From IMG/VR virus record IMGVR_UViG_3300044739_000089, positions 1-40,165 of that record: a DNA stretch of 40,165 bases. One strand, given 5' to 3'. The first letter of the stretch is position 1. Every line of letters starts with the position of its first letter. Under the pieces are notes generated by a model. The model worked only from the letters and a program-made list of their open reading frames with translations, did no database searches and was not told where the DNA came from. Of this stretch, positions 3,391-40,165 are shown in pieces. The position numbers were made by a program, and so were the translations under genes. Source of the DNA: a virus.

Positions 3391-3414
3391 GAAGACCCCC
3401 ACAAAATGCGGATG

Positions 3415-3552
3415 CGTTTTGCGGAGGGCTAGGGGAAGAAAGCTTCCGGCCGTCCTATCGTTTAGCGCCCGCGTTCGGCGGAGGTTTCCCCCTCAGGGAC
3501 CGGGGCGGCTATGCGCTAGGCCGGCTCTCCAGGGCAGCTAGGGCGGGCTGCC
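3415..3552 (-). promoter_or_regulatory. Structured 5' leader of the tailspike gene (copy 2)
   Basis: On the minus strand, 3475-3530 is identical over 56 nt to 17174-17229 upstream of the capsid gene. Downstream parts (about 3415-3474) are similar but varied. Possible helices: a long-range pairing of CCGGCC (3519-3524) with GGCCGG (3446-3451); UAGCGC with GCGCUA; a hairpin GGAAG-CUUU-CUUCC at 3434-3447, where the capsid copy has GGAGC-AGCA-GCUCC, so two pairs changed on both sides. A further 6-bp hairpin, GGCAGC/GCUGCC, lies at 3533-3552. This is probably a cis-acting RNA in the leader; function unknown. Confidence 0.7.
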
Positions 3553-3559
3553 GGACAAT

Positions 3560-3588
3560 GTTATGAGTCAACGCGACTCGATTGTCTA
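3560..3588 (-). promoter_or_regulatory. Candidate sigma70-type promoter for the tailspike
   Basis: On the minus strand, TAGACA (3583-3588) and CATAAC (3560-3565) are separated by exactly 17 nt. They match the -35 and -10 consensus at 5 and 4 of 6 positions. Transcription would start near 3553, at the 5' edge of the structured leader. The promoter overlaps the proposed start of the opposing gene at 3582. It is a pattern match only. Confidence 0.4.
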
Positions 3589-4487
3589 GGGGGGCACGTC
3601 CGATCATCTTCGATAACCTTCCGTACACTGTCCGGCATGGGGAAGAGGTCAACGGCGGCTTGATCGAACTGGATGGAAACTGGTTCACCGACTGCCGCTT
3701 TGAAAGCTGCCAGCTCGTATTCCGGGGAGAACGGCCCTTCGGCTTTACGAAGACGCAATTCCCCAATTGTCGCTTTGTCATCGAGGACCGGGCCGAGATG
3801 GTCTTGTCGCAGATCGGCCAGCTGGTCACGGTCGCACCGGAATTCACTGAGATCGTTCCGGCGCCCAACCTCCGGTTCGGGATTTACCGAACCCGTGCTA
3901 CCTACGCTCCGGCGACTCGACTGTCAAAGGGGGCGTTCGTGGGGCCAGATGGCGGCTTGGTAGTGGTGGGCCTGCTCATCGTTTTCGGAGCGCTGATCAG
4001 CTTTTTGACGCGCGAGAAGCCGCGGCCTGCCAAGTTTACGGACGATCAGGTCCGGTCTCAGGTGCTTGTCTACAAGACGCCAGAGGCCCTCTTCGCCTAT
4101 TGGTGCAAGTACGGCAACACGGAGATCATCCTTGATCGGCCACTTCTCGCACAGCTGATTGACCCGGGCGATGTCGCCGGCCCGGGGTTGCCCGCGATCG
4201 GCTTCCGCGCCGACGGCATCCAAACGGTCATGTTGAAGGTCGCCGCCAGCGACGGCGGGTTCATCGTCATCGCATCTACTGCCTCAAGGAGAGGTCCGCG
4301 ACTTCGAGTCGGCGACTTGGTGCTGTGGGCGCCGGGGGCATATGTTGACGGATTAGGAAACGAACTCGGCGACCCGCGGGCTGGTTACGTAGGCCTGATC
4401 GTGGCAACGGTTGCCCCGGCCTGGAGCATCAAGGACGGGTTTAAGATTATCGAGCGCTTTCTTCCCGATCCCGAAGCGGTTCGTTGA
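3582..4487 (+). CDS. Unknown protein with one membrane segment; opposite-strand moron
   Basis: About 301 residues, not assigned to a known function. Residues 30-70 have pentapeptide-like turns (CRFESCQLVFRG, then CRFVIED). A single hydrophobic segment (GLLIVFGALISFL) lies near residue 150. The C-terminal half looks like a small beta-rich soluble domain (RLRVGDLVLWAPG). It is the only plus-strand gene within the leftward late region and is less GC-rich: 31 of 60 bases at 3661-3720 against 45 of 60 at 5041-5100 in the next gene. This suggests a moron acquired by transfer. The start is uncertain; TTG at 3582 gives the longest credible N-terminus, but no good ribosome site precedes it. Its 3' end overlaps a 42-codon minus-strand gene. 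A membrane-linked lysogenic or exclusion role is speculation. Confidence 0.65.
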   Translation: MSRGARPIIFDNLPYTVRHGEEVNGGLIELDGNWFTDCRFESCQLVFRGERPFGFTKTQFPNCRFVIEDRAEMVLSQIGQLVTVAPEFTEIVPAPNLRFGIYRTRATYAPATRLSKGAFVGPDGGLVVVGLLIVFGALISFLTREKPRPAKFTDDQVRSQVLVYKTPEALFAYWCKYGNTEIILDRPLLAQLIDPGDVAGPGLPAIGFRADGIQTVMLKVAASDGGFIVIASTASRRGPRLRVGDLVLWAPGAYVDGLGNELGDPRAGYVGLIVATVAPAWSIKDGFKIIERFLPDPEAVR

Positions 4488-4575
4488 AGACCAGGACGGT
4501 CGGCACCTTGCTCTCCGAATACGGGGCAAGATAGGTCGCGCGCTGAAGCATGGGGAGGCCCTTACTGTCTCTCAT
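4447..4575 (-). CDS. Small protein, 42 residues, coupled to the ejection protein gene
   Basis: The ATG at 4573-4575 overlaps the stop of the large internal virion protein (ATGA), and the frame stays open to a TAA at 4447. The translation (MRDSKGLPMLQRATYLAPYS, then SKVPTVLVFNEPL) has a balanced, gene-like composition. The last 41 nt are antisense to the end of the plus-strand gene 3582-4487. Not recognised. It may be a small virion or tail-associated protein of the late operon. The coupling is the main support. Confidence 0.5.
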   Translation of the reverse strand: MRDSKGLPMLQRATYLAPYSESKVPTVLVFNEPLRDREESAR

Positions 4576-7016
4576 TCCGGAACCTCCCCCTCCCAGGCAT
4601 TGGCCGCGTTCGGTAGCCGTTCCGGTGCATGGAAGTCGGAGATCCGGCCTTCGCCCGGCCGCCACCAGAAGTCCTGCCCTTTGTCGGCCGCGGCGCGCTC
4701 GACGCGCGACCAGCTGTCGTAATAATTCTCGTCGGTCCATGCGCGCAGCTCGTCGATCAGCAGCCGCTCATAGGCCAGCCGCCCGTACCACATGGTTCCG
4801 CCCGGCGTGTAGCGGCGCGCCGCGTCGGCCGCGCTCATATTGCCCGTCGCGAGCCGAATGGTGTCTCCGATCGTGCCGACGCCCGGCCCCGCCACCGCCT
4901 CGGCCAGGCTGCCCGTCCGCTCGCTGGCGCCGGCCGAGGCGAAGTCGCCGAAGATGCCGAACCCGCCGCCCTGGAACATCGCCCGCGACCAGAAGCCGCC
5001 GTGGAGCCTGCCGTCCTTCAATGAGGGCAGGTCGTTCATCGGCAGCGGGTCGCGCCCCTTGGCGATTTCCTTGAGCTGCACCGCCAGCGCCCCGAGCGCC
5101 GTCAGGATGATCGTTCCGCCGGCGGCGTAGATTGCACCGTTGACCGGCCGCAAGCTCAGCGCGCGCCCGCCGTGACTGAGGATGACGGAGGTTCCGAAGC
5201 TCTTGAACAGCATCATGTTGCGGCTGATCTCGCCGGCGAGGCTACCGGGCCGCCCAAACGTCGTATAGGCCCGGCCCCGCACGGACGCGACCGGGACCGC
5301 ATAGTCCGTCTCCGTCAGCATCATCGCATGGACCTTGTCCGCCAGCTTGCGGTCGGCGATGTCGATCGGCCGCAGGAACGTCGCACCGCGCTTCTTCTCC
5401 AGCGGCGTCGCCCGTATCTTCTCCCAGTCGGCGCCGTCGATGCCGTAGCGCTCCATCGCTTCGCGGACCGGCCTCGGCACCTTCGCGAACGCCACGCCCG
5501 CGTGCTTGGCGAGAAGGCCCTGAAAATCGCGATCGAAGGCGTGCCTTCCGGCCGCGGTCCACGGGCTCAACCCGGAGACCCGCAACACGCCTTCGGCGAG
5601 GCGCCGCGCCCATTCGTGTCCGCCGCTCTCCCCCAGCCAGCGCTGCTGCGCCGAGCCGATTTGTGCCGACTCTTCCGCGACCACGCCAGATCTGAGGGCG
5701 TCCATCCGATCCGCTGCGTCAAGCGGGTTGAGCATCTTCAGATACCCGGTCATGGCGCCGGTGATCGGCAGTCCGTTGAACGCTCGCGTGATCGCCTGAA
5801 AGCCGACGTCCGTTATGGCCGAGATCATCGCTCCGCCCAGCATCTGCGCGGAATTGATTGACCGGAGCGTTCCGAACCGCCGGGCCCACTTCGCGTTGGC
5901 CGGGCTGTTCAGCGCGCCCGAGGTGATGTCGTACATCTGCTGGACCATCAGGGCCCCGCTGCGCGCGCGGTCGATCGCCGTGCCTTTGCGGTCGACGCCG
6001 ACATGAGCGCCCTTCATCAGCCCGTCCTTCAGCCACTCCACCTGCGCGGCCGGGTTCGGTCCGAGTATCTCCATATGCGCGATGTCGCGCGCCATCCCCT
6101 CTACATAGCCGATCATCGCGTCGAACACGTTGCCGTCGCCGAACGCCGCGTCATATTCGAACCAGGCGGCCGCGTCCCTGAAATGGAGGAAGCGATGCTC
6201 CGCCCGCTGGTTCGCCAGCTTCTTGCCGCTGTCGACGCCCCCGAGGGTGCGCCCGGCCCATCCTTCGGTGCTCACCGTCTCGTAGACGTCGTGCAGGACA
6301 GATCGCAGCGTCTCGTCGTCGAACGGCTGCCCGGTGACATCGTCGACCATTCGCTCGCGGTCGAGCAGCGGCGCGATGAAGTCCGCCCATTGCTCAAAAT
6401 CGACGGAGCGCACCTTTAGGCTGTTGTGGCTTTGCGGCGCCCAATTCTCCAGCTTGCCGATGGCACCGCCGGCGGCATTGAAGCGCAGCCTCAGATCCTC
6501 CGCGACGATGCGGAACGCCTCCGCCATCTCGCGGGCGGACAGGTTTCCGGTATTCTCGCCGCGCAGCTCGCGCACGATGTCCACCAGGCCGGATTTGTCG
6601 CGCACCTCGCCCAGAAGGTTGCGCCGGTGCCTCTCCAGGAAGTCGGCCATCCTGGCATGGGCTCGGCCGACGATCGTCTTCCGCAGCGCCTCCACGTTCA
6701 TGTAGGGCGCCTTGCCGTCATGATCGAACAGCGCCTGCGCCGCCGCCGCCGAGTTGTCGCCCTTGTAGCTGGCGAGGTCGCCGATCAGGCGCTTCTGCAC
6801 CGCGTGCTGCAGCAGCCTCTGGCGCTGCGCCTGGTCCGCGGCGCGCTCGATCGCGTCGACCGTCTCCTCGCTCGCCAGCGCCGCCGCGGTCGGCTCCCCG
6901 AAGCTGCGCTGGTGATGGCGCACCCGGCGGCCGTATATCTCCCGAGCCCGCTCCGCCTGCTCCGGCGTGATCCGGCCCTCCTCCAGAAGCTCCGGGATAC
7001 AGCGTTCCAGGCTCAC
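4572..7016 (-). CDS. Large internal virion (ejection) protein
   Basis: About 814 residues. Position in the operon, size and mostly helical, charged composition fit the large T7 gp16-type or BPP-1-like internal proteins that are ejected with the DNA and help span the cell envelope. Residues 660-700 hold a hydrophobic stretch (GAIYAAGGTIILTALGALAV) that may be a membrane segment. The start is taken as GTG at 7014-7016: it overlaps the stop of the preceding gene (GTGA) and has GAGGGGG 5 nt upstream, while the GTG two codons earlier would lie on that site. No enzymatic motif is seen here; the transglycosylase-like motif is in the preceding gene. Confidence 0.75.
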   Translation of the reverse strand: MSLERCIPELLEEGRITPEQAERAREIYGRRVRHHQRSFGEPTAAALASEETVDAIERAADQAQRQRLLQHAVQKRLIGDLASYKGDNSAAAAQALFDHDGKAPYMNVEALRKTIVGRAHARMADFLERHRRNLLGEVRDKSGLVDIVRELRGENTGNLSAREMAEAFRIVAEDLRLRFNAAGGAIGKLENWAPQSHNSLKVRSVDFEQWADFIAPLLDRERMVDDVTGQPFDDETLRSVLHDVYETVSTEGWAGRTLGGVDSGKKLANQRAEHRFLHFRDAAAWFEYDAAFGDGNVFDAMIGYVEGMARDIAHMEILGPNPAAQVEWLKDGLMKGAHVGVDRKGTAIDRARSGALMVQQMYDITSGALNSPANAKWARRFGTLRSINSAQMLGGAMISAITDVGFQAITRAFNGLPITGAMTGYLKMLNPLDAADRMDALRSGVVAEESAQIGSAQQRWLGESGGHEWARRLAEGVLRVSGLSPWTAAGRHAFDRDFQGLLAKHAGVAFAKVPRPVREAMERYGIDGADWEKIRATPLEKKRGATFLRPIDIADRKLADKVHAMMLTETDYAVPVASVRGRAYTTFGRPGSLAGEISRNMMLFKSFGTSVILSHGGRALSLRPVNGAIYAAGGTIILTALGALAVQLKEIAKGRDPLPMNDLPSLKDGRLHGGFWSRAMFQGGGFGIFGDFASAGASERTGSLAEAVAGPGVGTIGDTIRLATGNMSAADAARRYTPGGTMWYGRLAYERLLIDELRAWTDENYYDSWSRVERAAADKGQDFWWRPGEGRISDFHAPERLPNAANAWEGEVPE

Positions 7017-9400
7017 AGGCACCCCCTCAACGTGGCCGCGAAGGTCAGCTCGCCGTCCGTCTCCTCGAGCAGGGCGATCGCCGTCTTGTCGCCAGCCTCG
7101 GCATCCATCCTCAGATCGTGAAGCAGACTCTCCACCTGCAGCGCCGCCCCCTCGCCGTCCGGCGCGTCGAAGCGCGCGAGCTCGCCCGTGGGAGGGGCGG
7201 AGGTGGCAGTATCAAGCCTAACCGCCGGCGGCGGCGGCTTGCCTTCGCGCCGCGCCAGGATGCGGTCGCGCAGATGTTCGCCGGTCGTCACCGCGTCCGG
7301 CCCATGCTCGCGCCGGAAGGCGCGAACCTCGTCGCGATATTCGCCGGTGAATATCTCCGGCCGCTCCTTGGCGGCCTCGGCGAGCCACCCTTTGCGGCCC
7401 GCCACCGTGCCTATCTCTTCCCGCAGCACCGTCGTCAGATCGCCCCCGTCCGTCAGATCGCGTGCGATGGCGGCTACCGACCGAGTTTTACCCTTGCCGT
7501 CCGACAATTCGATCCCGGCATGACGGGACGCATTGAGCAGCACCCGCTCGTTATAGGGCAGGGCCTCGTAACGCTCGCCAGCGTCGACGATCCGCTGCAC
7601 TCGCGCCTGCAGGCGCTCGGCCGCCTCTTCCATCGTTGCCGGCGCAGCAAACTCCCGGTTCGACAGCATCGCTTCCGTCGGATGCTCCCGCGACCCATAT
7701 TCGATCGGGTTCTCGCCCGCCTCGCGTTGCACCGCAAATTGGGTAGCCGCATGCTCCTCCGGCGTCGCGAAATCCTCAACGCGCAACATGGCGACATCGT
7801 CGCTCCAGCTTTCTGCCGCCTCCCGCTCCGCCGGGAGTGGGGGGAGGTCGTCGACCTCGTCCAGCTCAGACCGATCTTCCCCCGCCGCCCGCTCCGCCGT
7901 CTCACCCGCTTTGGGTCGAGTCTCGCCGGGCGCCCCCATCTTTCGATCCGCCCACTCGACCAGATCGGCGGCAGACATCCCTTTCAGGAAGCGGTTCTTC
8001 TCGATCGCGAGCGGCTTCAGCAATTGCGCGACCGGCGTGTCGGGCGCCGCGCGCAGGACCTTGAGCCCATCCGGTCCGGCGAAATGGAGCAGGTACAAGC
8101 TCCCCGCCGTTTCCGGCTGCCCGGCGTCGCGAAGCATCGCCGCATTGTCCGCGACGAGATCGTTCATCAGCACGTCGTTCAGAGCCGGGTCGCGCCTTTT
8201 GGCGGCGATCTGCGCGTCGGAGAGGCCGCCACGTCCGTAGCGCCGTACATAATAGCTCCGCCACGTCGATGCGAGGAACTGGTACGGCCCCATCGCTCCC
8301 GACGCCTCGTTATAGCCGTCACCCTCTTCGACGCGCCGGATCCTGGACTTGAGCTGCTCGCGCGCTCCCGCCGAGCTCACCGGCGAGGGCGGAGATGTTC
8401 CACGTGTCACACGGCCATAGGCGGCGCCCAGCCGCGCCGCGTGGACGTCGTCGCCCGCCGGGCTCCGTTCGAAGGGCGAAGTCTCCAGCACCTCGGCATG
8501 CCTTTGAACGACATTCGCGGCTGCCTGCTCGCCGGGCGTCCGCCGCTCCTCGGGCAGGCCGGCATCCATCAGCGCAAGCAACTGCCGCTCGGCGGCCGTG
8601 CCGGCCCGGCGCGCCGTAATAGCATGTACGCCCAGATCGAGGGTCTTCCCAGCGCCCCCCAGGACGCCGCCGGTGAGGCCGGAGACGCCAGTGTCGATCA
8701 GCGTCTCACGCGCCCCACGCTCCACGCCAAGGGAGGCCGCGTCCTCGCGGGTGAAGGGTTCCAGCGCGAGGGTCAGCCCCGCGTTCGCGGCGGCCTCGCG
8801 CCCCGCCACGGACAAGATCATCCGCGCGGCCGTGAGCCCCTTCAGCGCCGGACCGCCGACGGGAATATAGCTCGTCGGATCGAGGAAGCCGGCGCCGAGC
8901 GCGCCGGCCACTTGCCCCGCGGTCGAGCCGCCTCGCAGCTCCGCGTCCGCCCTCCCCACGTCGGTGCGGCGCTGGTCGACGGCGAACCGGCGAAGACCCT
9001 CCCGGTCGTGGATCGTTGCATATTGGGGAAGGAGCCTTGGGTCGCGAGATCGCTCGGCCTGGTACCAGGCCATTAGGGAGTTTTCCCTTTCGTCCTCCAC
9101 ATCCCCGAGGTCGTGATCGGCGCCATAGGCGAGGGCATCCTCCCGCGTCCGGGCCCTCGGCGCCATGTGCCACGTGCCGCGCTTCCGAGCCTCCGCCTCG
9201 ATGTCCGCCAGAACGCGCCCCTCGTAATTCATCTGGTTGAGGCCCCAATCCTCCGCCGCCCTGGCGCGGCGAAAGCCTGGGCCGATGCTGCCGAAGAAGC
9301 CTGGGCCGGGAGGCTCCGCCTTGGGCGTCCCGGCGCTTGCTGCCCGCACGTCCTCGCGGCTCGGCGGCGCCCACGGATCACTCATCAGGGAGGCCTTCAT
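7013..9400 (-). CDS. Internal virion protein with lytic transglycosylase-like domain
   Basis: 795 residues. Residues 351-480 resemble soluble lytic transglycosylases: a candidate catalytic Glu at 358-359 (RRVEEGDGY), then SGAMGPYQFLASTW at 367-380 and a YLLHFAG segment at 436-442. This would open the peptidoglycan during DNA ejection, as in T7 gp16. Here the domain is in a different protein from the largest ejection protein. The N-terminal 300 residues are helical and Gly/Ala-rich (GQVAGALGAGFLDP); the C-terminal third is charged and probably extended. The start is uncertain between ATG at 9398-9400 and ATG at 9383-9385; neither has a clear ribosome site. The gene overlaps the preceding one. 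Confidence 0.75.
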   Translation of the reverse strand: MKASLMSDPWAPPSREDVRAASAGTPKAEPPGPGFFGSIGPGFRRARAAEDWGLNQMNYEGRVLADIEAEARKRGTWHMAPRARTREDALAYGADHDLGDVEDERENSLMAWYQAERSRDPRLLPQYATIHDREGLRRFAVDQRRTDVGRADAELRGGSTAGQVAGALGAGFLDPTSYIPVGGPALKGLTAARMILSVAGREAAANAGLTLALEPFTREDAASLGVERGARETLIDTGVSGLTGGVLGGAGKTLDLGVHAITARRAGTAAERQLLALMDAGLPEERRTPGEQAAANVVQRHAEVLETSPFERSPAGDDVHAARLGAAYGRVTRGTSPPSPVSSAGAREQLKSRIRRVEEGDGYNEASGAMGPYQFLASTWRSYYVRRYGRGGLSDAQIAAKRRDPALNDVLMNDLVADNAAMLRDAGQPETAGSLYLLHFAGPDGLKVLRAAPDTPVAQLLKPLAIEKNRFLKGMSAADLVEWADRKMGAPGETRPKAGETAERAAGEDRSELDEVDDLPPLPAEREAAESWSDDVAMLRVEDFATPEEHAATQFAVQREAGENPIEYGSREHPTEAMLSNREFAAPATMEEAAERLQARVQRIVDAGERYEALPYNERVLLNASRHAGIELSDGKGKTRSVAAIARDLTDGGDLTTVLREEIGTVAGRKGWLAEAAKERPEIFTGEYRDEVRAFRREHGPDAVTTGEHLRDRILARREGKPPPPAVRLDTATSAPPTGELARFDAPDGEGAALQVESLLHDLRMDAEAGDKTAIALLEETDGELTFAATLRGCL

Positions 9401-11537
9401 AAGCGGACCGGGCGCTCGGGCGCCCGTCGTCGAATGGCGTTACCAGCTCATAGGCCGAGCGGACCGGCTTGGACGGGGCCGCGCGCGGAGTCGGAGCCGG
9501 ACCCGCGCGACCGTGCGTTAGGCGGCCGAGCTGGCGGATGTCGAGGATGAAATTGTCGCCGGGATGCTTGGCCGAGGCGACGAAGCCGCTTCCGGATTGG
9601 AACATGTAGAGCCCGTCGCGCCACATCACCGGCCTCAGTTTCTTGAACTCCGCCGCCGACATTCGTTTTCCGCCCCACAGCGGCACGTCACGGCCACCGA
9701 ACGCGGCGCCCATGATCGCCTCCTCGTCCGACCGCGCCAGGACCAGATCGACGTCGCCTTGGCTCATTCCGCGCGGCAGGCCCATCTTGGAGCCATCCCG
9801 CGCTTCGCCGATGCCGCCTGTGCCATCCCCGGCCGCGCCGAAAGCTGCGCGATACGCCTCCAGCCACAGGGGCCGGTCGTAGCTCGACTTCCCCCGGCGG
9901 GCGGCGCGCGCAGCATATATTCCCCGCGCCGCCTCGTTGATGCCTTCGAGCGTCACCCCGTCCATCATCCGTGTCGCCTCGCCGAACTCGCGCTCCGCGT
10001 CGGCTCGCATCTGCTCGGTCGCGCCATCGCCGCCGGCGAGCTTGGGATTGGCCCTGATCAGGTCCCACCCGCCCAATGCCTCCCTCACCAGCCCCATCCC
10101 CGCCGACCGATTGCGCATCGATGCCAGATCTGCCAGCGCAGCATATTCGGCCTTCGCCGGCGCGACCTGACGTAGCAACTGCTTGCCCCTTGCATTGCCG
10201 TAGGCGGTCATCGTCTCGATCATCGCAGCCTTGTCGCCGGCGCTGCCGCTCTCGAACTCCTCATGGTAGCGCGCTGCGATCTCCGCCGTCATGTGGGTCG
10301 GCGGCCCGCCGTACCTTTCCGCGGCGCCGTCACCAGCCGCGAACCACCGGCTCATCGCCCGCGGGTCGGCCAGATCGAATTCGGGCAGGCCGCGACCGCC
10401 GCCATTCTGGATGAACAGGCCCAGCTTGTCCTTTTCGGCTCGACCACGCCACCGCTCGATCATAGTGCCGAGCTGGTCGTACTCCGCCTTGAGGCTCCGG
10501 TCCTGCTCCCAGCCGTCCTTTGCCGCGATCGCGCGCTGCGCCGCCCGCAGCTCGCCCTCGTCCGAAGCCCCATATTTGTCTGTAACCCGCGCCTTGCCGC
10601 CGGTCACCTCCAAGTCCCGCGCCAGTTTCTCGAACTCTGGGCCACCAATCGCGACCGCGCGCCGACGCGCCTCGTCAATGGATGCCGGATCAACCTCGAC
10701 TCCGCTGTTCACGTCTTCGATCAAATTCTCGGCGCGCGCCCGGAACTCCGCCTGCTCCCCCTTCACTGCCTGCCGCGCGCGCGCTTGGTCGCGCTCCAGC
10801 CGGGCGTCGATGCGCTCCCGCACGTTGCCGACAGCGTCGCCGAGCCATCCGGTGTAGTAGCCGCTTTCCAGCTCCCGCTTTGCTTCCTCCGGTGGTAGCC
10901 CGTCGAGCACCGCGCGCGAGGCGGCGGCGGCGATCCGCGCTCTGTACTGGCGCTTTTTCTCGTCCGACCCTGGCAAAGCCGCCAGACGATCGTCGACCGT
11001 CGCCATTTCCTCAACCAACGTCTGGCGACCAGGATTGAGATTGATCCGCCCGAGGCTGAAATTGTCGGCGTCAACTTGGTCCTGCCACCTTTGCTCTCCC
11101 CTGGCAGCCGCCTCGAAAGTCTCGGCGCGAAGGATCAGACGGTCGACCGCTCCATTCAGATGCTCCTCGACCCTGTCGCGCACGCGCCGGTCCGTGATCG
11201 TGCCGACATATTCCTGCGTCAGGTGGCGCCCGTATGTCTCAAAGCCAGCGGCATGACCGGCGGCCCCCGCCGCCGGGTTCTCCTCCATCTCGATCCGCTT
11301 CCGCTCGATATCGAGCAGGACTTCGCCGGCACCCTTTGACGCACGCGTGAATTCCGCTTCCTCTTCGTGCTGCTGGTCGATCCGCAGACGGGTCAGCCCG
11401 GCTTGGTGGAGCTGGCCGCCCGCCTGCTCGAGCGATCGCCCGACCCCGGCGCCGAACGCCTCCGCCGGAGCTCCTCCGAACGCCGTGCTTCCGCCGGGGG
11501 CGACCTGCGGCCGATAAATCTCCTCCCGGGCGGCCAT
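9378..11537 (-). CDS. Internal virion protein, long helical (T7 gp15-like position)
   Basis: 719 residues, strongly charged and helical (many Glu, Arg and Ala heptads), with no signal peptide or membrane segment. Its place between a small internal protein and the transglycosylase protein matches the gp14-gp15-gp16 order of T7-like and BPP-1-like podoviruses. It probably forms part of the internal core and ejection tube. The ATG overlaps the upstream stop (TGATG). The last 60 residues are Pro/Ala/Ser-rich, perhaps a flexible tail. The assignment rests on order and composition rather than on motifs. Confidence 0.65.
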   Translation of the reverse strand: MAAREEIYRPQVAPGGSTAFGGAPAEAFGAGVGRSLEQAGGQLHQAGLTRLRIDQQHEEEAEFTRASKGAGEVLLDIERKRIEMEENPAAGAAGHAAGFETYGRHLTQEYVGTITDRRVRDRVEEHLNGAVDRLILRAETFEAAARGEQRWQDQVDADNFSLGRINLNPGRQTLVEEMATVDDRLAALPGSDEKKRQYRARIAAAASRAVLDGLPPEEAKRELESGYYTGWLGDAVGNVRERIDARLERDQARARQAVKGEQAEFRARAENLIEDVNSGVEVDPASIDEARRRAVAIGGPEFEKLARDLEVTGGKARVTDKYGASDEGELRAAQRAIAAKDGWEQDRSLKAEYDQLGTMIERWRGRAEKDKLGLFIQNGGGRGLPEFDLADPRAMSRWFAAGDGAAERYGGPPTHMTAEIAARYHEEFESGSAGDKAAMIETMTAYGNARGKQLLRQVAPAKAEYAALADLASMRNRSAGMGLVREALGGWDLIRANPKLAGGDGATEQMRADAEREFGEATRMMDGVTLEGINEAARGIYAARAARRGKSSYDRPLWLEAYRAAFGAAGDGTGGIGEARDGSKMGLPRGMSQGDVDLVLARSDEEAIMGAAFGGRDVPLWGGKRMSAAEFKKLRPVMWRDGLYMFQSGSGFVASAKHPGDNFILDIRQLGRLTHGRAGPAPTPRAAPSKPVRSAYELVTPFDDGRPSARSAYEGLPDE

Positions 11538-11974
11538 CAGCCCGCCGCCCGCGCATTGGCGTAATCGGCCTTGTGGTTGGCCACCGCGCTCGCCGCTCCG
11601 AACAACCCGCCGACCAGTGCCTGGCGTCCCTGCGCCGCGGCGATCTCGCCCTGGGCGCGTCGCGCCGCGGCGGCGCTGGCGCCGCGGCGGCGCAGGTTCA
11701 TCACGTCCATTTCCGCTTCGATTTGGCTCTCGCGCAGGCTGTCGAGGTTGGTGCCGGTGCCGACCTCGAAGCCGCTTTCCGCCTGCGCTCCGACCTGCCG
11801 GCCCATCGCCACCCTCGCCGAGTCGCGGATCCGCGCCACTTCGGCCGAGGCGTCGCGTTCGTCGCCGATCGCATTGGCCTCTTCGACCTTCTGGTTGAAC
11901 TGCCCGGCCCGGTAGCCGGCCAGGCCCTGGACGAGGTTGCCCGCGATCATCAGCGGAAGCGCCGCGGCCTGCAT
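11537..11974 (-). CDS. Small internal virion protein (T7 gp14-like position)
   Basis: 145 residues. The start (AAALPLMIAGNLVQGLAG) is hydrophobic and could enter a membrane. The middle has the pattern NQKVEEANAIGDERDASAE, then RESQIEAEMDVMNLRRRG, seen in small podovirus internal proteins. The end is Ala/Gly-rich. Start ATG overlaps the GNAT-like gene stop (TAATG), and its stop overlaps the next start (TGATG). Probably ejected early with the DNA to form a pore or tube in the outer envelope; inferred from T7 gp14. Confidence 0.65.
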   Translation of the reverse strand: MQAAALPLMIAGNLVQGLAGYRAGQFNQKVEEANAIGDERDASAEVARIRDSARVAMGRQVGAQAESGFEVGTGTNLDSLRESQIEAEMDVMNLRRRGASAAAARRAQGEIAAAQGRQALVGGLFGAASAVANHKADYANARAAG

Positions 11975-12441
11975 TATCCGACCCTTTCGAACAGGAGGTG
12001 GGTCTTGCCTTCCGGCCCCCATTTGCGGAGCAGCGCGCGGCGGCGAAGGCCGACCAGCCGCGCCCATTTGGGCTCGGCGACGATCCCGGCGCGGACGATC
12101 GCCTCGATCCGGTCGAACCGGCTCTCCTCGATCCGCCGCCGCGCGAACCTGGTGATCGCCAGCTGGGCGGCGCCCAGATCGGCCGCCAGCAGCGCCCAGG
12201 CGACCGCGTGGCCGCCCGTCAGGCCGTTCGCCGGCCAAAGCAGGGTGAAGCCCGCGCAGCACAATATGCGCCCGTCGCCGCCGACCGCCGTCCAGGCCGG
12301 GCCGCCCGCGACGAGCTCCTCGCCCTCCTCGATCGAATGGACGGCGCGGGTCACTCCGAGGCAGACATGCTGCGACGGCTGGAGCGCGAGCTGGACGACG
12401 TCGCCGGCGCACATCGGCCTGAAGGTGACCGGGCCGGCCAT
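11974..12441 (-). CDS. GNAT-like phage protein (gp13 / DUF2833 type)
   Basis: 155 residues. The fold pattern is that of degenerate GNAT acetyltransferases found between tail tubular B and the internal proteins in podoviruses. It has a start strand (VTFRPMCAGDVVQLAL), a central AVGGDGRILCCAGF strand pair, and a C-terminal ARLVGL segment followed by G-x-H-x-LFE. The acetyl-CoA loop is not clearly present, so it may be structural. Neighbouring genes overlap at both ends (TGATG upstream, TAATG downstream). Confidence 0.6.
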   Translation of the reverse strand: MAGPVTFRPMCAGDVVQLALQPSQHVCLGVTRAVHSIEEGEELVAGGPAWTAVGGDGRILCCAGFTLLWPANGLTGGHAVAWALLAADLGAAQLAITRFARRRIEESRFDRIEAIVRAGIVAEPKWARLVGLRRRALLRKWGPEGKTHLLFERVG

Positions 12442-14717
12442 CAGCGCTCGCCCAGCGTGTAGGTCGGCATCGCCGCTACCACCATGCAGGGCAGAGGGTC
12501 GTCGGAGATGATCGTATATTGGCCGTCATAACCATAATTGCCGCCGAGCGACTTCGACGTGTCGCCGGTGAAGGGCGGCACCGGAGCGTCCATCTCGGCG
12601 CTTCCCGGGCGGTCGATCAGCTGGTCGGCATGGCCGGTGTCGGGATCGACCTTGATCCCCACCGTCTCGAGCAGCCTCAGCACGATGGAGACCAGCCGCT
12701 TGCGCTTGCCCTGCAGGGTGCCTCCGTCCGGCGCCCGCGCCTCCGGCCGAAGCGGCCTCAGCCGCGCCGTATAGCCGAGGCCGACATGGCATTTCAGGGC
12801 TGTCGCGCCGTTGGGCAGCGCCAGCGTCGCATTGGGTCCGGCGCTGACCGTCAGTCCCGGCACCACCCCGCCGTCCGCCAGCACCGCCACCGCCTTGCCG
12901 GCGAGGTGATCGATCGCCCCCGCATTGGCGGGCGCCGGAAAGCTGTTCCGCGCGGCCCCGTCATAGCTGACTCCGCTGTCGACGAAGAAGGCGTCCTCGA
13001 GCGCCGTTTCCTCCTCCTCCCAGGCCGGCGCCTGGAGCTCGACGCTCTTGCCCGCCGCGCCGCCGTCGACCAGCGCCCACAATTCGTCGCGGGTCCCGTC
13101 CTCGGACGGGATGGCCACCGCGCTCAGCACCGCCCCGGCGGCGTGGGCGACTCGGGCGAACCCCTTCACCTCCTGCTCGGGGACATGGGGATGGAGCGCG
13201 AGCAGTCCGTCGTTCCGGACCGCCCAGACCAGCTCCTCGGGTTCCTGCTGGAAGGTCATCTGCTTCGCGCCGCTCTTCAGGATATGGCGCTGCCACACGG
13301 CGATGTTGGCCGCCGAATAGCGGTCGCTCCCCAGATCGTAATCGGCCTCGCGGATCTTGCGGCCGCTTTTCTGGACGAACAGGGTCGAGGTTCCGGTCTC
13401 GACCGGGCGCACCGGCTGCGAGCCGTAGCTCGACTGGGGAACGCACTCGATATTGTCGCTCGAGAAGATGTCGGCATTGTTGATCTTGCGGATGACGTGC
13501 TCGCCGTCCGACGTCCCGATCAGCACTCCGTCGCGGTCCGCCTTCGCCCACAGCACCGGGTTGGAGATGGTCAGCCGCTTTCGGAACGCCATGTCGGGGG
13601 CGAGCAGGCCGCTTTCGGTGAACGGCGCCATGTTGACGCTTCCGCCGCCATAGTCGCCGACCACCGAGGCGATCAGCTCGAAATCGGTGAAGAAGAGCAG
13701 CCGGCCGAAGCCGAGCAGGACGATGCCCGGCCACCCCGCCGCGGCCGAGACGGCCGCGAGCGCCCAGCGGTGGCTCGCGGCGGCGGCGAGGCTCGCCGGG
13801 ATCCGCCGGGTGACCGAGATGGTCGCCGCGGTTCCGCCGCCCCCGACCGAGAGGATCGTGCCGATCCCGAACCGGTCGTGAAGATAGGTCCACTTGACCC
13901 CGTACGGGCCCTTGGCGTTGACGTCGCTTCCGCCCGAGCCGTCCCATTCGGAGCCGTGGCTATGGGTCGGCTGGACGCTGCCGGTGCGATTGGTCGCCAC
14001 CGCGGCGGCGGCGAGATAGGCCTTGCCGTCGCTTCGGACGATGGTGGTTCCGACGACCACGCCGTCCATCCCCGCTTCCCAGGCCTTGATGTCGGAAAAA
14101 TCCTCCGCCTCGATCATGACCGAAGATCCGACATGGCCGGCCAGGAAGGGCGCTCCGCCCGCCACGTGAACGATCGCGTTACCGCCGACCGTGAGGGTGC
14201 CGGTCACCGTCACCGTGATCGCCTCGTCGACGTTGGAGTCGGCGAACGGCCCGTTCCTGAGCGTCAGAGCGGTGTGGGCGAAGGTGGTCGCGGTCAGCCG
14301 GGTCAGCGCCGCCGGCGCGTGCGAGCGGTGGGCGAGATAGAGCCGGTCGTAGCTTTGCTGATACCAGACCGAGGGCGCCTGCGCCGCCGTATAGGGCACA
14401 ACCACCTCGTAGGCGACGTTCGGAGCGGTCTCGATCCGGCCGCCGTTCGTATAGAAGCGAAGCTTCGCCGGGCCCCATTCGATCACATAGGCCTGGGTTC
14501 GGCTGACGATGAACGGGCTCAGCCAGGTCGAGCCCGTCATCGCCGCCCGGATATAGGCGAAGCCCGACCGCTTCATCGCCGGCCCCTCGACCGTGGGGAC
14601 GAAGTTGAGCATCTCGGCCGCCGAGATGGCGTAGATTGCTTGGTCGCTCCGGCCGTGCATCCGCGGCGACACCTCGCCGCCGTTGAAGCTGTTGATCATG
14701 GGGGCGAGGGCGCTCAT
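12441..14717 (-). CDS. Tail tubular protein B-like (tail nozzle)
   Basis: 758 residues from ATG at 14715-14717, which overlaps the tail tubular A stop (ATGA). The longer open frame upstream runs through the tail tubular A gene and is not used. The start has the hallmark INSFNGGEVSPRMHGRSDQ, followed by LNFVPTVEGPAMKRSGFAY, typical of podovirus tail nozzle proteins related to T7 gp12. The rest is beta-rich with repeated short strands. It would form the lower tail tube below the adaptor. Confidence is high from motif and order. Confidence 0.85.
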   Translation of the reverse strand: MSALAPMINSFNGGEVSPRMHGRSDQAIYAISAAEMLNFVPTVEGPAMKRSGFAYIRAAMTGSTWLSPFIVSRTQAYVIEWGPAKLRFYTNGGRIETAPNVAYEVVVPYTAAQAPSVWYQQSYDRLYLAHRSHAPAALTRLTATTFAHTALTLRNGPFADSNVDEAITVTVTGTLTVGGNAIVHVAGGAPFLAGHVGSSVMIEAEDFSDIKAWEAGMDGVVVGTTIVRSDGKAYLAAAAVATNRTGSVQPTHSHGSEWDGSGGSDVNAKGPYGVKWTYLHDRFGIGTILSVGGGGTAATISVTRRIPASLAAAASHRWALAAVSAAAGWPGIVLLGFGRLLFFTDFELIASVVGDYGGGSVNMAPFTESGLLAPDMAFRKRLTISNPVLWAKADRDGVLIGTSDGEHVIRKINNADIFSSDNIECVPQSSYGSQPVRPVETGTSTLFVQKSGRKIREADYDLGSDRYSAANIAVWQRHILKSGAKQMTFQQEPEELVWAVRNDGLLALHPHVPEQEVKGFARVAHAAGAVLSAVAIPSEDGTRDELWALVDGGAAGKSVELQAPAWEEEETALEDAFFVDSGVSYDGAARNSFPAPANAGAIDHLAGKAVAVLADGGVVPGLTVSAGPNATLALPNGATALKCHVGLGYTARLRPLRPEARAPDGGTLQGKRKRLVSIVLRLLETVGIKVDPDTGHADQLIDRPGSAEMDAPVPPFTGDTSKSLGGNYGYDGQYTIISDDPLPCMVVAAMPTYTLGER

Positions 14718-15289
14718 GAATAACGCGCCGTTATCCAGTCGCTCTCGACCGTCACGACCGGGGGATTTTCCTTGGCGTCGACGCCCTTGGCCTTGGCCAG
14801 GGCGGCGCGATAGGCCCGGAACGCGTCGTCCTTGCGGCCACGATCGCCGGTGATCCGGTCGGCGATCTGGAAGGCGAGCCGGGCGGCGAAGGCCGAGACG
14901 AACAGAGCGTCCCACAGGCCCGTCTCCTCGACGTCGCGGACGTAGCGGACCCACAAGGGCCCCGCCGTGTCGGCGAGGATCCGCCCGCCTTCATTCTCGA
15001 ACGTGTCGCGGCAGCCGGGCGGATCGAGCACCTCGAGCAAGCGAAGGCAATCCTCGGGGAGCTGGAACGCCGCCGCCCACGGATAGGTAACGATATCCTC
15101 GACCGCGCTCAGATCGCGGCGGGCGATCGCGAAGTTCCAGGGATGGTCGCGCAGGACGTCGCGGCGGACCTCGTCCCACACCGCCCGCACCGCCCGCGCC
15201 GCATGGCTGTCCTGGTCGGGATCGCGCAGCTGGTCGTCCTCGCCGATAAGCGAGAGGGTGAGATTGGCGATGGTGACATAGTCGGCCAT
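14714..15289 (-). CDS. Tail tubular protein A-like (head-tail adaptor)
   Basis: 191 residues, the usual size for T7 gp11-type adaptors. It begins ADYVTIANLTLSLIGEDDQL, the family's conserved start with helices that bind the portal ring, and continues AVWDEVRRDVLRDHPWNFA and YPWAAAFQLPEDCLRLLEV, both characteristic. It sits directly before the tail nozzle gene and overlaps it by ATGA. It acts in the virion neck. Confidence 0.85.
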   Translation of the reverse strand: MADYVTIANLTLSLIGEDDQLRDPDQDSHAARAVRAVWDEVRRDVLRDHPWNFAIARRDLSAVEDIVTYPWAAAFQLPEDCLRLLEVLDPPGCRDTFENEGGRILADTAGPLWVRYVRDVEETGLWDALFVSAFAARLAFQIADRITGDRGRKDDAFRAYRAALAKAKGVDAKENPPVVTVESDWITARYS

Positions 15290-15304
15290 GGGCGTGGGCC
15301 GCGG

Positions 15305-15499
15305 CTAAAGCTGCGGCCAGGGGTGCTCGTGGATCTGCTTCTTGATCTCGTCGAGCAGGATCAGCGCCTCGCCCTTCGGCAGCACCGTGAAATCCACGTT
15401 GACGAAGAGCGCGTCGGATCCGGAGATCGCGCTGCCGGCGGCGACGACGACGTCCTGCGCCCTCTGGCCCCTTTTGATGGTCAGCTTGAACGTCGACAT
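15305..15499 (-). CDS. Small protein between head and tail genes
   Basis: 64 residues (STFKLTIKRGQRAQDVVVAA at the start, EALILLDEIKKQIHEHPWPQ at the end). Not recognised. Position between the decoration-like protein and the tail adaptor matches a small gene of BPP-1-like phages. The pattern of a short beta section then a helix could fit a head-completion or chaperone role, but no function is claimed. It is flanked upstream by three hairpins (15516-15605). A ribosome site GGAGG lies just upstream of the ATG. Confidence 0.6.
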   Translation of the reverse strand: MSTFKLTIKRGQRAQDVVVAAGSAISGSDALFVNVDFTVLPKGEALILLDEIKKQIHEHPWPQL

Positions 15500-15515
15500 G
15501 CTGGAGCCTCCCTTT

Positions 15516-15605
15516 CCGGATGAAAAACCGTCCCTCGGGGCGGCTTTTCATCCGGGCGGCGGGTCTCGTGGGATCCCCGCCGCCCGGCGCTCTGGCCCGA
15601 GCGCC
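15516..15605 (-). terminator. Three tandem hairpins, first read terminator-like
   Basis: Three perfect or near-perfect stem-loops lie back to back. At 15586-15592/15599-15605: 7 bp. At 15554-15563/15576-15585: 10 bp. At 15516-15526/15545-15555: 11 bp with an inner 7-bp stem. On the minus strand the last contains CCGCCCCGAGGGACGG followed by TTTTT, a classic terminator shape, itself enclosed in the longer stem. They fill the gap between the decoration-like gene and the 64-residue gene and probably trim or attenuate the late transcript. Confidence 0.6.
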
Positions 15606-15608
15606 CCC

Positions 15609-16052
15609 TCAGGCCGAGGTCGTGAAGAAGATGTCGATGATCAGGATGCCGGAAGCGGGCAGATTGGCCGCTGCGATCGTCGCCAGCAGCCGTTCCGTCG
15701 CGGTCAGCGGGACGTCGTCCTTCGCCGCCGCGTTGCCGAACGCCGTCGGCGTGTCGACCGCGGTGAAGACGGCCGCGGTGCGATATTTGCCGGTCGCTCC
15801 GGAAATGCCGATCGCGAGCGTCGCGGTCGCGCCCATCGTCGCGCTGGCCGTCATCAGGCCGTGCGAGAAGGCGGCGCCCTGCGGCATGTCGCCGAGCACG
15901 AGGCTGTCGCCGCTGGCGAAGGTCGCGGTCGACAGGTCGAAGCTGGCGCGGATACGCCGCAACTTGCCGCCATGGAGACGGCTGTCCACGGGCGTCGACG
16001 GCAAGGTGCCGTCGAGATGGCCGGCCGTTTCGGCTGAATAGCGCGTCGTCAT
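15609..16052 (-). CDS. Head protein, probable decoration/cement protein
   Basis: 147 residues, rich in Ala, Thr, Ser and short strands, with few charges. Contains SFDLSTATFASGDSLVLGDM and, further on, TLAIGISGATGKY. It lies immediately downstream of the major capsid gene, where BPP-1-like phages carry a minor head or decoration protein. A ribosome site (GGAGGG) precedes ATG at 16050-16052. The assignment is from position and composition, not from a recognised domain. Confidence 0.5.
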   Translation of the reverse strand: MTTRYSAETAGHLDGTLPSTPVDSRLHGGKLRRIRASFDLSTATFASGDSLVLGDMPQGAAFSHGLMTASATMGATATLAIGISGATGKYRTAAVFTAVDTPTAFGNAAAKDDVPLTATERLLATIAAANLPASGILIIDIFFTTSA

Positions 16053-16065
16053 TTGAAGGCCCTCC

Positions 16066-16132
16066 TTGTCACCGGAGCGGCGGACCGGGCCCGCCGCTCC
16101 GGAGACAAGGCGGCCCGCCGAAGCGGGCCGCC
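16066..16132 (-). terminator. Two strong hairpins after the capsid gene
   Basis: First: GGCGGCCCGC/GCGGGCCGCC at 16109-16118 and 16123-16132, 10 bp closed by a UUCG tetraloop on the minus strand. Second: 12 bp (16072-16083/16091-16102), extended by TTGTC/GACAA (16066-16070/16104-16108) past one A-A mismatch. There is no clear T-run, so these may be attenuators or 3'-end protectors that keep capsid mRNA abundant over downstream genes. Confidence 0.55.
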
Positions 16133-16139
16133 CGCCGAC

Positions 16140-17069
16140 TCAATTCCGCTTGTTGACGATGTAACCGACCTTGCCGTTGTCGGTGCGGGTCACCGCACCG
16201 CAGAAGGACGCGTAGACCTGGATCGAATTGTGCTTATCGACGCGCCGATCGAGGGAGGTCTTGATGTTCCACCAGGGCACCCGGATCAGGCCGGATTTCG
16301 ACCAGAACGGGGTTTTGCGATTGCCCGAGCCGGCATCGAGGAGCGCCGCGTTCCAGAAGAGCGGGTTCTCGGTCTCCATGTCGACGAAGGTGAAGCCCAT
16401 CAGCTTGCGCAACTTGCCGTCGCGAAGCTCGCCCCCCTCGGCCCCGAATTCGCGCGAGGTCACCGGCATCTCGTTGAGCAGTTGGTCGCTGTCGTCGGCG
16501 GTGAGAGGCATATAGGCCGGCTCGTTCATGTCGACGAAGTTCTGCATGCGCAGCTTGCGCGCCGAGCGCAGCTTGGCGAGGTTCATGCCGGTCGCCGTGC
16601 CGCTGACGCCGCCGACGTCCGACGCGACGACATTGCCCGACGGGAAGGGGGACAAAGTCGTTCCGTCCTTGCCGACGATCATGTTGCCGAAGAAGCCGGC
16701 GAGAACTTCATCGTCTTTGCCCCGGTTGATCGTCGCCACCGCGGTCTGCATGTAACCGCTCTGGATTTGGATCATCGCCTGCACTTGGTCGTTATTGTCG
16801 ACCAAGTCGGCGTAATAATGGAAATCGGGTTTCGCGACCCAGAGTCGGCTGTGCGGCGTATTCGCGAACTGCGTGTCCCCGTGGCGGCCGTCGGCCGAAC
16901 CCTTCATCGACTTCACGTGGCCGATGATATCGTCGATCTGCTTCTTTTCGCTGCCGGTACCGGTCCGCTCGTCGAGCAGGTTCCAGAGCAGGGGCTGGGT
17001 CTGGTTGAGAGCCAGACGTATATTGTTTTCGAACTGGACGGTGAAGGTGGTTGGAACCTGGTCGCTCAT
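16140..17069 (-). CDS. Major capsid protein
   Basis: 309 residues. It begins TTFTVQFENNIRLALNQTQP and continues through WNLLDERTG, QIDDIIGHVKSM and HYYADLVDNNDQVQ, fitting the Phage_capsid_3 (DUF4043) group used by BPP-1-like podoviruses. It directly follows the scaffold gene and sits upstream of the decoration-like and tail genes. Its ATG at 17067-17069 has an ideal GGGAGGG ribosome site. The leader is unusually long and structured and is shared with the tailspike; strong hairpins lie on both sides. These features fit high, separately tuned expression. The exact family name is from memory of the pattern; major capsid is well supported by order and size. Confidence 0.85.
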   Translation of the reverse strand: MSDQVPTTFTVQFENNIRLALNQTQPLLWNLLDERTGTGSEKKQIDDIIGHVKSMKGSADGRHGDTQFANTPHSRLWVAKPDFHYYADLVDNNDQVQAMIQIQSGYMQTAVATINRGKDDEVLAGFFGNMIVGKDGTTLSPFPSGNVVASDVGGVSGTATGMNLAKLRSARKLRMQNFVDMNEPAYMPLTADDSDQLLNEMPVTSREFGAEGGELRDGKLRKLMGFTFVDMETENPLFWNAALLDAGSGNRKTPFWSKSGLIRVPWWNIKTSLDRRVDKHNSIQVYASFCGAVTRTDNGKVGYIVNKRN

Positions 17070-17100
17070 GGCGCCCTCCCAAAATGACGTTGAAGCCAGT

Positions 17101-17229
17101 TTGCGAAGGGCTAGGGGAGCTGCTGCTCCGGCCTTTCTATCGTTCCCCCGGATCGACTCCGGGGCGCCTGCGGTCGGCGGAGGTTTCCCCCTCAGGGACC
17201 GGGGCGGCTATGCGCTAGGCCGGCTCTCC
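17101..17229 (-). promoter_or_regulatory. Structured 5' leader of the capsid gene (copy 1)
   Basis: 17174-17229 is identical over 56 nt to 3475-3530 upstream of the tailspike. Shared helices are possible: CCGGCC (17218-17223) with GGCCGG (17128-17133), and a 3' hairpin GGAGC-AGCA-GCUCC (17116-17129) that differs from copy 2 by paired substitutions. This copy has an extra hairpin, CCCCGGA/TCCGGGG, at about 17147-17165 which is absent from copy 2. The conserved tail reads CCTAGCCCTTCGCAAA and lies about 35 nt before the start codon. Probably a cis-acting RNA; function unknown. Confidence 0.7.
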
Positions 17230-17248
17230 TATTCGTCTAAAACGACGA

Positions 17249-17280
17249 TGCCGCCGGGTTTCTCACGGAACCCGGCGGCA
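17249..17280 (-). terminator. Perfect 12-bp hairpin between scaffold and capsid genes
   Basis: TGCCGCCGGGTT (17249-17260) pairs with its full complement (17269-17280) around an 8-nt loop. On the minus strand it is followed by CGTCGTTTTAGACG, which itself can form a small 5-bp hairpin. Directly upstream, 17281-17286 reads TTGACA on the minus strand, a perfect -35 box, but no good -10 follows at the right distance. Probably an intercistronic terminator or processing site separating scaffold from capsid mRNA. Confidence 0.5.
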
Positions 17281-17317
17281 TGTCAAGACGTTGGCGCGGA
17301 TCGGGCGCCGATTTTTC

Positions 17318-24898: not shown

Positions 24899-24924
24899 CC
24901 GTTCCAACGCAACCGTTCCAACGG
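24899..24924. repeat. Tandem CCGTTCCAACG repeats
   Basis: CCGTTCCAACG occurs at 24899-24909 and again at 24914-24924. The 10-base core CGTTCCAACG also occurs twice as an inverted pair at 14-55, at the far left end. Four copies of a 10-mer is more than chance predicts in 40 kb. Possible terminase or operator site. Confidence 0.45.
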
Positions 24925-25181
24925 CCCCTCGCGCCCCCTCGAAAAACGGCGGAAATCCGCCATTCCCGCCCAGGCCGGATCCCGCCAGGCCGGCCAGCTC
25001 GGCCGAGCCCATCGCCGCCGGCCTCGAGCCCGCCCAGGCGCGCCGCCCCCGAAACTTTTCGCCCGCACTCCCTCCAAAGGGGCGGCCCCTCGCGCCCCCT
25101 CGAAAAACGGCGGAAATCCGCCATTCCCGCCCAGGCCGGATCCGCCCCCGAAACTTTTCGCCCGCACTCCCTCCAAAGGGG
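24922..25181. repeat. REP-like direct repeats (A1, B1, A2, B2)
   Basis: Repeat A is 61 bp, identical at 24922-24982 and 25083-25143. It contains GGCGGA-AA-TCCGCC, a small hairpin, and reads AWAGMADF in one frame, like host REP elements. Repeat B is 40 bp, identical at 25043-25082 and 25142-25181 (contains GAAACTTTTCGCCCGCACTC). The order is A1, spacer, B1, A2, B2, so a unit was partly duplicated. It lies beside the iterons. No coding function. Confidence 0.8.
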
Positions 25182-27596: not shown

Positions 27597-27898
27597 AGCA
27601 GCCTCCGGGTGAATTTGGGAAGCGGGAGACCGTCATAGGCTCCGGCGAGGCCATAGCCGGCGAAGAGGACGAAGGCATGCACGCCGCCCTGGTTGAGCCA
27701 GGCGCCGTACAGGCGATGGCCCCTCTCGGTCATCGCGGTCGAACCGAGGCGGCTCATCGCGCCTGCTCCCCGAGCTCGGCGCGGATCCGCCTGAGCTGCG
27801 CCCCCCCCCCAGGCAAGCGAGCGCCAGAGCTGCGCCGCCGCTTTGGCCGGGTCGCCATGGCGCGAGAGGTTCTCGGCGAAGTGATCGAGGAGGGTCAT
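27593..27898 (-). CDS. Two small ORFs fused in frame by a G10 tract
   Basis: As read, one 101-residue frame. It looks like two genes. The first half (MTLLDHFAENLSRHGDPAKA, then QLWRSLAW) is followed by ten G. With nine G it would continue GAQLRRIRAELGEQAR and stop at a TGA (27754-27756) overlapping an ATG at 27755-27757 (ATGA), the junction style used all over this genome. The second gene would then be 27593-27757, 54 residues: MSRLGSTAMTERGHRLYGAW, then VHAFVLFAGYGLAGAYDGLP. Neither is recognised. Either a homopolymer error, slippage-based expression, or a true fusion. Confidence 0.55.
   Translation of the reverse strand: MTLLDHFAENLSRHGDPAKAAAQLWRSLAWGGGAAQADPRRARGAGAMSRLGSTAMTERGHRLYGAWLNQGGVHAFVLFAGYGLAGAYDGLPLPKFTRRLL
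27801..27810 (-). repeat. G10 homopolymer tract inside a coding region
   Basis: Ten G on the minus strand, the longest homopolymer in this operon. Its length decides whether the two small ORFs are fused or separate. Runs of nine (29655-29663) and eight G (29467-29474) lie in nearby small genes without upsetting their overlaps. Confidence 0.6.

Positions 27899-40091: not shown

Positions 40092-40165
<74 letters not shown>

Follow-up and report, generated by a model that had tools for sequence, protein, structure and literature searches.

The 40,165-base virus record IMGVR_UViG_3300044739_000089 (in the following "the window", meaning this whole stretch of DNA) carries its late genes on the minus strand, and those for the major capsid protein and the tailspike are each preceded by a copy of the same structured RNA element. 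Comparison with homologous leaders of other phages indicates that the element is almost certainly a real cis-acting RNA family. Its two 3′ helices, P4 and P5, compete for a common strand, through which it probably acts on translation. We consider it moderately likely that the leader switches translation of late structural genes in the manner of a riboswitch, and that a factor senses two of its internal loops at once. These two loops, which are identical and co-evolve, represent the most striking feature of the element and were overlooked in the initial annotation of the window.

Two copies of a structured leader

The initial annotation had described a 56-nt identity between minus-strand positions 17174-17229 (copy A, before the capsid gene) and 3475-3530 (copy B, before the tailspike gene), and this repeat is exact. 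Extended without gaps, it covers 66 nt at 97% identity (17164-17229 / 3465-3530), and the 3′ halves of the two copies are diverged yet alignable (79% over 45 nt, E 1e-4). The hairpins GGAGC-AGCA-GCUCC and GGAAG-CUUU-CUUCC, which differ by two compensated pairs, are present in these halves as claimed. Since homologues of the same layout stand ahead of the capsid gene in dozens of further phages, a chance origin of the repeat is excluded.

A CCGGCC/GGCCGG stem had been proposed to close both elements. It can be paired in both copies, but 79.5% of the alignment cells were paired with zero compensatory changes, which is not above shuffled controls. The stem was rejected as a closing helix; its 5′ strand is part of P1 and its 3′ strand part of P4. 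The elements do stop about 30-35 nt short of the start codon, close to the distance given earlier, but this remaining stretch is structured as well, as it contains the P5 hairpin that holds the Shine-Dalgarno (SD) sequence.

An RNA family linked to the capsid gene

In the two phages whose capsids are nearest to that of the window (about 80% identity), this element likewise immediately precedes the capsid gene. A degenerate pattern built from the conserved core was searched in viral contigs and bacterial genomes and matched 61 and 30 stretches, respectively. Among the 30 matches in bacterial genomes, 13 were real elements and 17 were due to chance; 12 of the 13 belong to Sphingomonadales (Sphingomonas, Novosphingobium, Erythrobacter, Croceicoccus, Aurantiacibacter and Altererythrobacter) and one to Rhodopseudomonas. 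The element was found in about 60 distinct phages and prophages of Sphingomonadales, just before a PF19821 major capsid gene. In almost every real element, a distance of about 50-75 nt separates the core from the first codon of a capsid gene with ~300 codons.

A covariance model, R1, was then built from the family and run over phage records. Most records contained one copy, and two copies were present in the window and in phage G011. The second copy of G011 precedes, via a short overlapping reading frame, a 662-aa protein that adjoins the structural genes. The start codon following P5 in this leader (L013, upstream of 7010) opens the short frame, which overlaps the start of the 662-aa protein (TGATG) and suggests translational coupling. 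For the Rhodopseudomonas phage G002, a further apparent copy (E 2e-4) falls within a reading frame and was discarded as a false match.

A search by capsid protein added 95 loci. The element was present in 52 of the 57 Sphingomonadales-type relatives scanned; the five without an element match have capsids that are at most 28% identical to the query. About 20 leaders of Rhizobiales type retain the layout, with diverged sequence. R1 gave no match in the pelagiphages HTVC010P and HTVC028P, Vibrio phage 1.182.O or two Manatee Spring phages. The leader of Manatee Spring phage MW202898 (L098) shows a stretch resembling the 3′ half only, with a hairpin, ACAAGCCCTTCG and an SD hairpin, and has no recognizable 5′ twin loop; it may represent an ancestral one-loop form.

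Rfam contained no relevant match for the window, for ten homologous loci or for single leaders at permissive E-values. The candidates radC, mir-9195, ar7, Xoo8 and suhB either fell under the gathering score or were located elsewhere. A small literature search, without most subscription journals, retrieved nothing relevant on structured leader RNAs of phage capsid genes, and nothing on put. The element is a new RNA family, absent from Rfam.

Helices supported by compensatory changes

Comparison of the leaders shows helices P1 to P4 upstream of the P5 hairpin (Table 1). Across 44 sequences, both sides of P1 change in 5/5 pairs. P2 is paired in 100% of cells, with changes on both sides in all four pairs, and the apical stem of P4 is paired in 96% and compensated in 4/4 pairs. 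Together with P3, which is invariant in sequence among homologues, these helices score above all shuffles and slid controls. In some leaders, among them copy A, an additional GC-rich hairpin is inserted directly after P3.

The basal stem of P4, in which GAGnGGC pairs with GCCCUUC, is 97% paired. One of its pairs occurs as A-U, C-G or G-C, the last being the type found in copy B of the window, and another is G-C in L190 and C-G elsewhere. In the Rhizobiales set, the stem both varies and covaries, with 4 of 2000 permutations scoring as well. A pseudoknot GATAGA/CUUCG, the initial reading of the covarying pair 155-202, was abandoned, as the P4 basal stem accounts better for this pair.

Covariation far above shuffles and slid controls, and a fixed site before the capsid gene, strongly support the claim that leaders of late structural genes contain a conserved cis-acting RNA. 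Judged by sequence comparison, its conserved secondary structure, compensatory changes and location 5′ of a gene characterize the element as a predicted cis-regulatory RNA leader. The possibility that the copies are only promoter DNA, named beforehand as a finding that would overturn this claim, is ruled out by the compensatory changes. A promoter-like TTGAC occurs as a separate site upstream of the element in 68/72 leaders, compared with a mean of 5.8 in shuffled sequences.

Twin internal loops change in step

One and the same asymmetric internal loop, in which four bases, NYWA, face a single C, occurs in both P1 and P4. A GCC/GGC stem lies apical to the loop in P1 and basal to it in P4, and the two loops are therefore related by a pseudo-twofold. 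Among 66 sequences, the W position (55/195) reads U/U in 40 and A/A in 26, and is mixed in none. Positions 53=193, 55=195 and 56=196 were identical in 47/47 aligned sequences, and exchange between the loops in the Sphingomonadales alignment was limited to C/U at position 54/194. In a phylogeny of 59 capsid proteins, W switched 10 times in either loop, and both loops switched alike in 10/10 independent pairs (p 0.002). Leaders L103 (CCUA/CCUA) and L067 (CCAA/CCAA), for instance, belong to phages with 97% identical capsids and differ at W in both loops. Rhizobiales-type leaders contain matched loops of other sequence (CGCA, CGCG, CGCATA, CGCAA), the exceptions being a C/U exchange in L206 and an extra C in L215, and the distant leaders L195, L197 and L198 have ACAA in both halves.

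A mutual-information scan revealed no third RNA column that follows the loop state. Domain-swapped pairing between the two halves was tried as a source of the loop identity and rejected: the cross pairs are broken in L190, L075 and L161 with the key base still matched. In a check for a pocket of the metabolite-riboswitch kind, P3 and AAACGAUAG formed a near-invariant core, whereas both internal loops differed between phages. We see about an even chance that the twin loops are read by a phage-specific factor.

Alternatively, the loops could dock onto each other in the folded RNA. Such a homotypic contact would act as a metastable timer that forms during transcription, leaves the SD free for a while and relaxes into P5, with no need for a trans factor. 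It would suit the conservation of identity rather than complementarity, the matched changes even between relatives as close as L103 and L067, and the lack of any other RNA column that tracks the loop state. However, standard base pairing does not explain the identity, most loop classes (CCAA, CUCG, CGCA) are not self-complementary, and homo-pairs of this kind would be most unusual. Docking is an unlikely explanation in our view. At the low end of this estimate stands the proposal that the two loops recognize each other by sequence identity, their letters being free as long as both change alike, and that this contact gates capsid translation.

A hairpin that holds the Shine-Dalgarno

The GCCCUUC strand that forms the 3′ side of the P4 basal stem also starts P5, and the opposite strand of P5 contains the SD. 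Because the same bases are used, the P4 basal stem and P5 are mutually exclusive. The SD was paired in 43 of 51 distinct leaders, compared with 43% in shuffles (mean z -3.1). When SD regions were permuted between phages, the P5 energy of the own pairs beat all permutations (0/1000 as good); each phage thus has its own specific pairing. A nearest-neighbor model prefers the P5 fold by a median of 7 kcal/mol.

The covarying SD pairing, together with an anti-SD strand that also takes part in an alternative conserved helix (weak in the Sphingomonadales swap test), marks the leader as a predicted SD-sequestering switch. Of the roles proposed in the initial annotation, translation control is favored because the anti-SD strand is common to the conserved fold and the SD-holding hairpin. 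The sequences contain no specific pointer to the other three, namely put-like antitermination, mRNA stability and self-cleavage.

Proposed mechanism

Sequence comparison establishes the helices, the identical loops, the pairing in P5 and the strand common to P4 and P5. In the proposed mechanism, the capsid mRNA would begin with the cis-acting RNA as its 5′ leader, the tailspike mRNA with the second copy, and the RNA would govern translation start by means of two mutually exclusive folds. In fold 1 (P1-P2-P3-P4), both identical internal loops would be made, in P1 and P4, in a pseudo-twofold layout. GCCCUUC closes P4 in this fold and therefore cannot hold the SD. In fold 2, the same strand would pair with the SD region as P5 and hinder translation start. 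Fold 2 is the more stable one in the energy model, so that fold 1 would probably be kept by early folding during transcription or by a factor. P5, with the SD hidden, would be the default, and the P1-P4 fold the ON state in which the SD is freed. The factor would read both loops together, and would most likely be a dimeric, phage-encoded protein whose specificity shifts in step with the loops.

Several points weigh against this mechanism. Given the energetic preference for P5, fold 1 would be minor unless a factor or kinetic trapping intervenes. The P4 basal stem is nearly invariant in the Sphingomonadales set, where swapped partners pair no more weakly than the own ones (-5.28 swapped, -5.22 own) and where the support for the stem consists of a few compensations. 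No binding protein was identified; close phages with different loops are too diverged genome-wide to single out a factor. Finally, constant tuning of translation, without any switching, could also account for a folded leader that has an SD hairpin.

Other possible roles

Besides loop docking, four further explanations were weighed against the translational switch. A role as 5′ stabilizer of the most abundant mRNA, or as a signal for its processing, with RNases and not ribosomes as the target, would fit the position of the element at the 5′ end. A G-rich/C-rich run, which could form a 5′ hairpin, is also often found between the TTGAC box and P1. Both the covarying SD pairing and the two matched loops would be left unexplained, however, and we regard this role as quite unlikely.

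An improbable alternative is a promoter-proximal RNA similar to put of HK022, which would make RNA polymerase resist terminators and allow read-through of the late operon. In favor of it, the element follows a promoter-like site at a short distance, and copy A is immediately preceded by a terminator-like hairpin. That hairpin is, however, upstream and not downstream of the element, and copy B precedes the final part of the operon. Moreover, the element abuts one start codon and its last strand pairs with the SD of that gene, which an antitermination signal would not need.

Pairing of both loops with a phage-encoded trans-acting small RNA would agree with a C/U exchange being tolerated only at 54/194, as if opposite a G. 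Yet GGGCTAGG occurs in the window only as the complement of both elements themselves, and complements of the own-class loop are not in excess in other phages, leaving little probability for such a partner. A 5′-terminal self-cleaving ribozyme, although compatible with a compact, highly conserved core and variable helices, is the least probable explanation, given that no Rfam ribozyme matched at gathering level or at permissive E-values and no invariant cleavage site was recognized.

Promoter-like and terminator-like sites upstream

The TTGAC of copy A is part of a -35-like TTGACA, at which a strict sigma-70 scan found no site. In the homologous leaders, TTGAC is often followed by CGAGTCGCG and TGAGATTT. 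The motif TTGAC-NNN-CGAGTCGCG-NNN-TGAGATTT, with the near palindrome CGAGTCG between both boxes, resembles a binding site for a phage activator and is seen in the window at 3574-3588 and 3913-3927 on the minus strand; in its full form, it is not clearly enriched within the window (10 versus 5.4 expected). The promoter-like sites, TTGAC and TAGACAATCGAGTCG, suggest that each element begins its own transcript, and the leader would accordingly be transcribed from the site upstream of it. The segment 3582-4487, between two promoter-like sites upstream of copy B, contains an open frame on the plus strand with no Pfam match; it is possibly an inserted gene that duplicated the promoter.

Genomic context and feature coordinates

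The late genes on the minus strand encode a portal-like protein (phrog_332), the major capsid protein (phrog_3437), a tail tubular B-like protein (phrog_376), internal virion proteins and the tailspike. The capsid protein is distant kin of the capsids of HTVC010P-type pelagiphages. Further observations in the window include a Mom-like DNA modification protein (27895-28362; phrog_1384, 1.7e-29) that adjoins primase genes, and a ParB-like protein (37131-38360, plus strand; phrog_1033, 1.4e-19) that may indicate a plasmid-like or temperate lifestyle. An exact 61-nt direct repeat is located at 24922-24982 and 25083-25143 (spacing 161 nt), and another exactly repeated block at 25043 and 25142; the arrangement resembles a non-coding repeat array. 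Tandem 174-nt repeats (91% identical) at 30904-31389 lie within a 388-aa reading frame of unknown function, and CGGCGA/CGGCTA hexamer repeats at 40105-40165 continue past the end of the record.

Table 1 Positions of the two leader copies, their parts and associated sites in the window.
Feature	Position	Strand	Details
Copy A, whole structured leader of major capsid gene (P1 to P5)	17073-17224	-	R1 match 17083-17232, 101.8 bits, E 1.9e-27
Copy A P1	17198-17224	-	outer stem GCCGG/CCGGU; internal loop CCUA opposite C17203; inner stem GCG/CGC
Copy A 5′ twin loop CCUA	17216-17219	-	key base same as in 3′ twin loop in 66/66 homologues
Copy A P2	17180-17193	-	GAGG-GGGAAA-CCUC (GGA-type loop)
Copy A P3	17165-17179	-	CGCC-GACCGCA-GGCG, nearly invariant core
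Copy A extra hairpin	17146-17164	-	shared with L057 and L191; not in copy B or most homologues
Copy A P4	17105-17137	-	basal stem GAAAGGC (17131-17137)/GCCCUUC (17105-17111); internal loop C17130 opposite CCUA
Copy A P4 apical hairpin	17116-17129	-	GGAGC-AGCA-GCUCC
Copy A 3′ twin loop CCUA	17112-17115	-	
Copy A P5	17073-17111	-	GCCCUUC...GGAGGGC; pairs SD (17074-17080); strand 17105-17111 common to P4
Copy B, structured leader of tailspike gene	3396-3525	-	R1 match 3402-3533, 112 bits, E 2e-30
Copy B P1	3499-3525	-	
Copy B 5′ twin loop CCUA	3517-3520	-	
Copy B P2	3481-3494	-	
Copy B P3	3466-3480	-	
Copy B P4	3423-3455	-	
Copy B P4 apical hairpin	3434-3447	-	GGAAG-CUUU-CUUCC
Copy B 3′ twin loop CCUA	3430-3433	-	
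Copy B P5	about 3396-3429	-	
TTGACA, -35-like box upstream of copy A	17281-17286	-	TTGAC at this place in 68/72 homologous leaders
Terminator-like site just upstream of copy A	17248-17281	-	13-pair hairpin, then CGTCGTTTTA
TAGACAATCGAGTCG, promoter-like site just upstream of copy B	3574-3588	-	one mismatch to TTGACNNNCGAGTCG, found before many capsid leaders
Major capsid protein, PF19821 Phage_capsid_2	16140-17069	-	start ATG 17067-17069; E 1.4e-52; phrog_3437
Tailspike / tail fiber gene, 3′ of copy B	1240-3390	-	start ATG 3388-3390; phrog_1640 tail protein, 1.3e-31

Discussion

The layout of the element is reminiscent of several known systems. SD-sequestering riboswitches and ribosomal-protein-type leaders likewise combine an aptamer-like fold with a last strand common to an SD-pairing hairpin, the two folds being exclusive. 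Here, the regulated gene is a phage capsid gene, and the twin loops vary between phages yet stay matched, unlike an invariant ligand pocket. The RAT sites of the BglG/LicT antiterminators contain two related asymmetric internal loops in a pseudo-twofold layout that are read by a protein dimer. The likeness lies in the paired loops; a RAT site is one hairpin that acts on a terminator, whereas the present loops sit in two helices and the output strand pairs with the SD.

Lambda boxB, the hairpin of the nut site bound by N, occurs once per site and serves antitermination; its loop differs between phages and is common to the copies within one phage. Phage-specific loop sequences, as expected for a phage-specific RNA-binding protein, are seen here too, but a single leader contains them as twin internal loops. 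The put RNA of HK022 has polymerase as its target and is located ahead of early operons. It is similarly a structured RNA near a phage promoter, while the present element abuts one late gene, that of the capsid, and pairs with its SD. In the MS2 coat-protein operator, an RNA structure at the start site sets translation of the capsid gene. Compared with it, the present RNA is larger, belongs to a double-stranded DNA tailed phage and shares its SD-pairing strand with an upstream fold, and there is no sign of binding by the capsid protein.

To our knowledge, control of major capsid translation by a dedicated structured RNA has been little described in tailed double-stranded DNA phages. The major capsid protein is the phage product needed in the greatest amount and at the right time. 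The element is widespread, being found in many viruses of Alphaproteobacteria, is linked to one capsid family and, as the tailspike copy illustrates, can be transferred to other structural genes. That two loops within one RNA are so strictly matched is an unusual evolutionary signature, from which one would expect either a dimeric RNA-binding protein specific to the phage or a new way in which RNA recognizes itself. If the translational switch is true, the leader would constitute an on/off switch for production of the virus shell.

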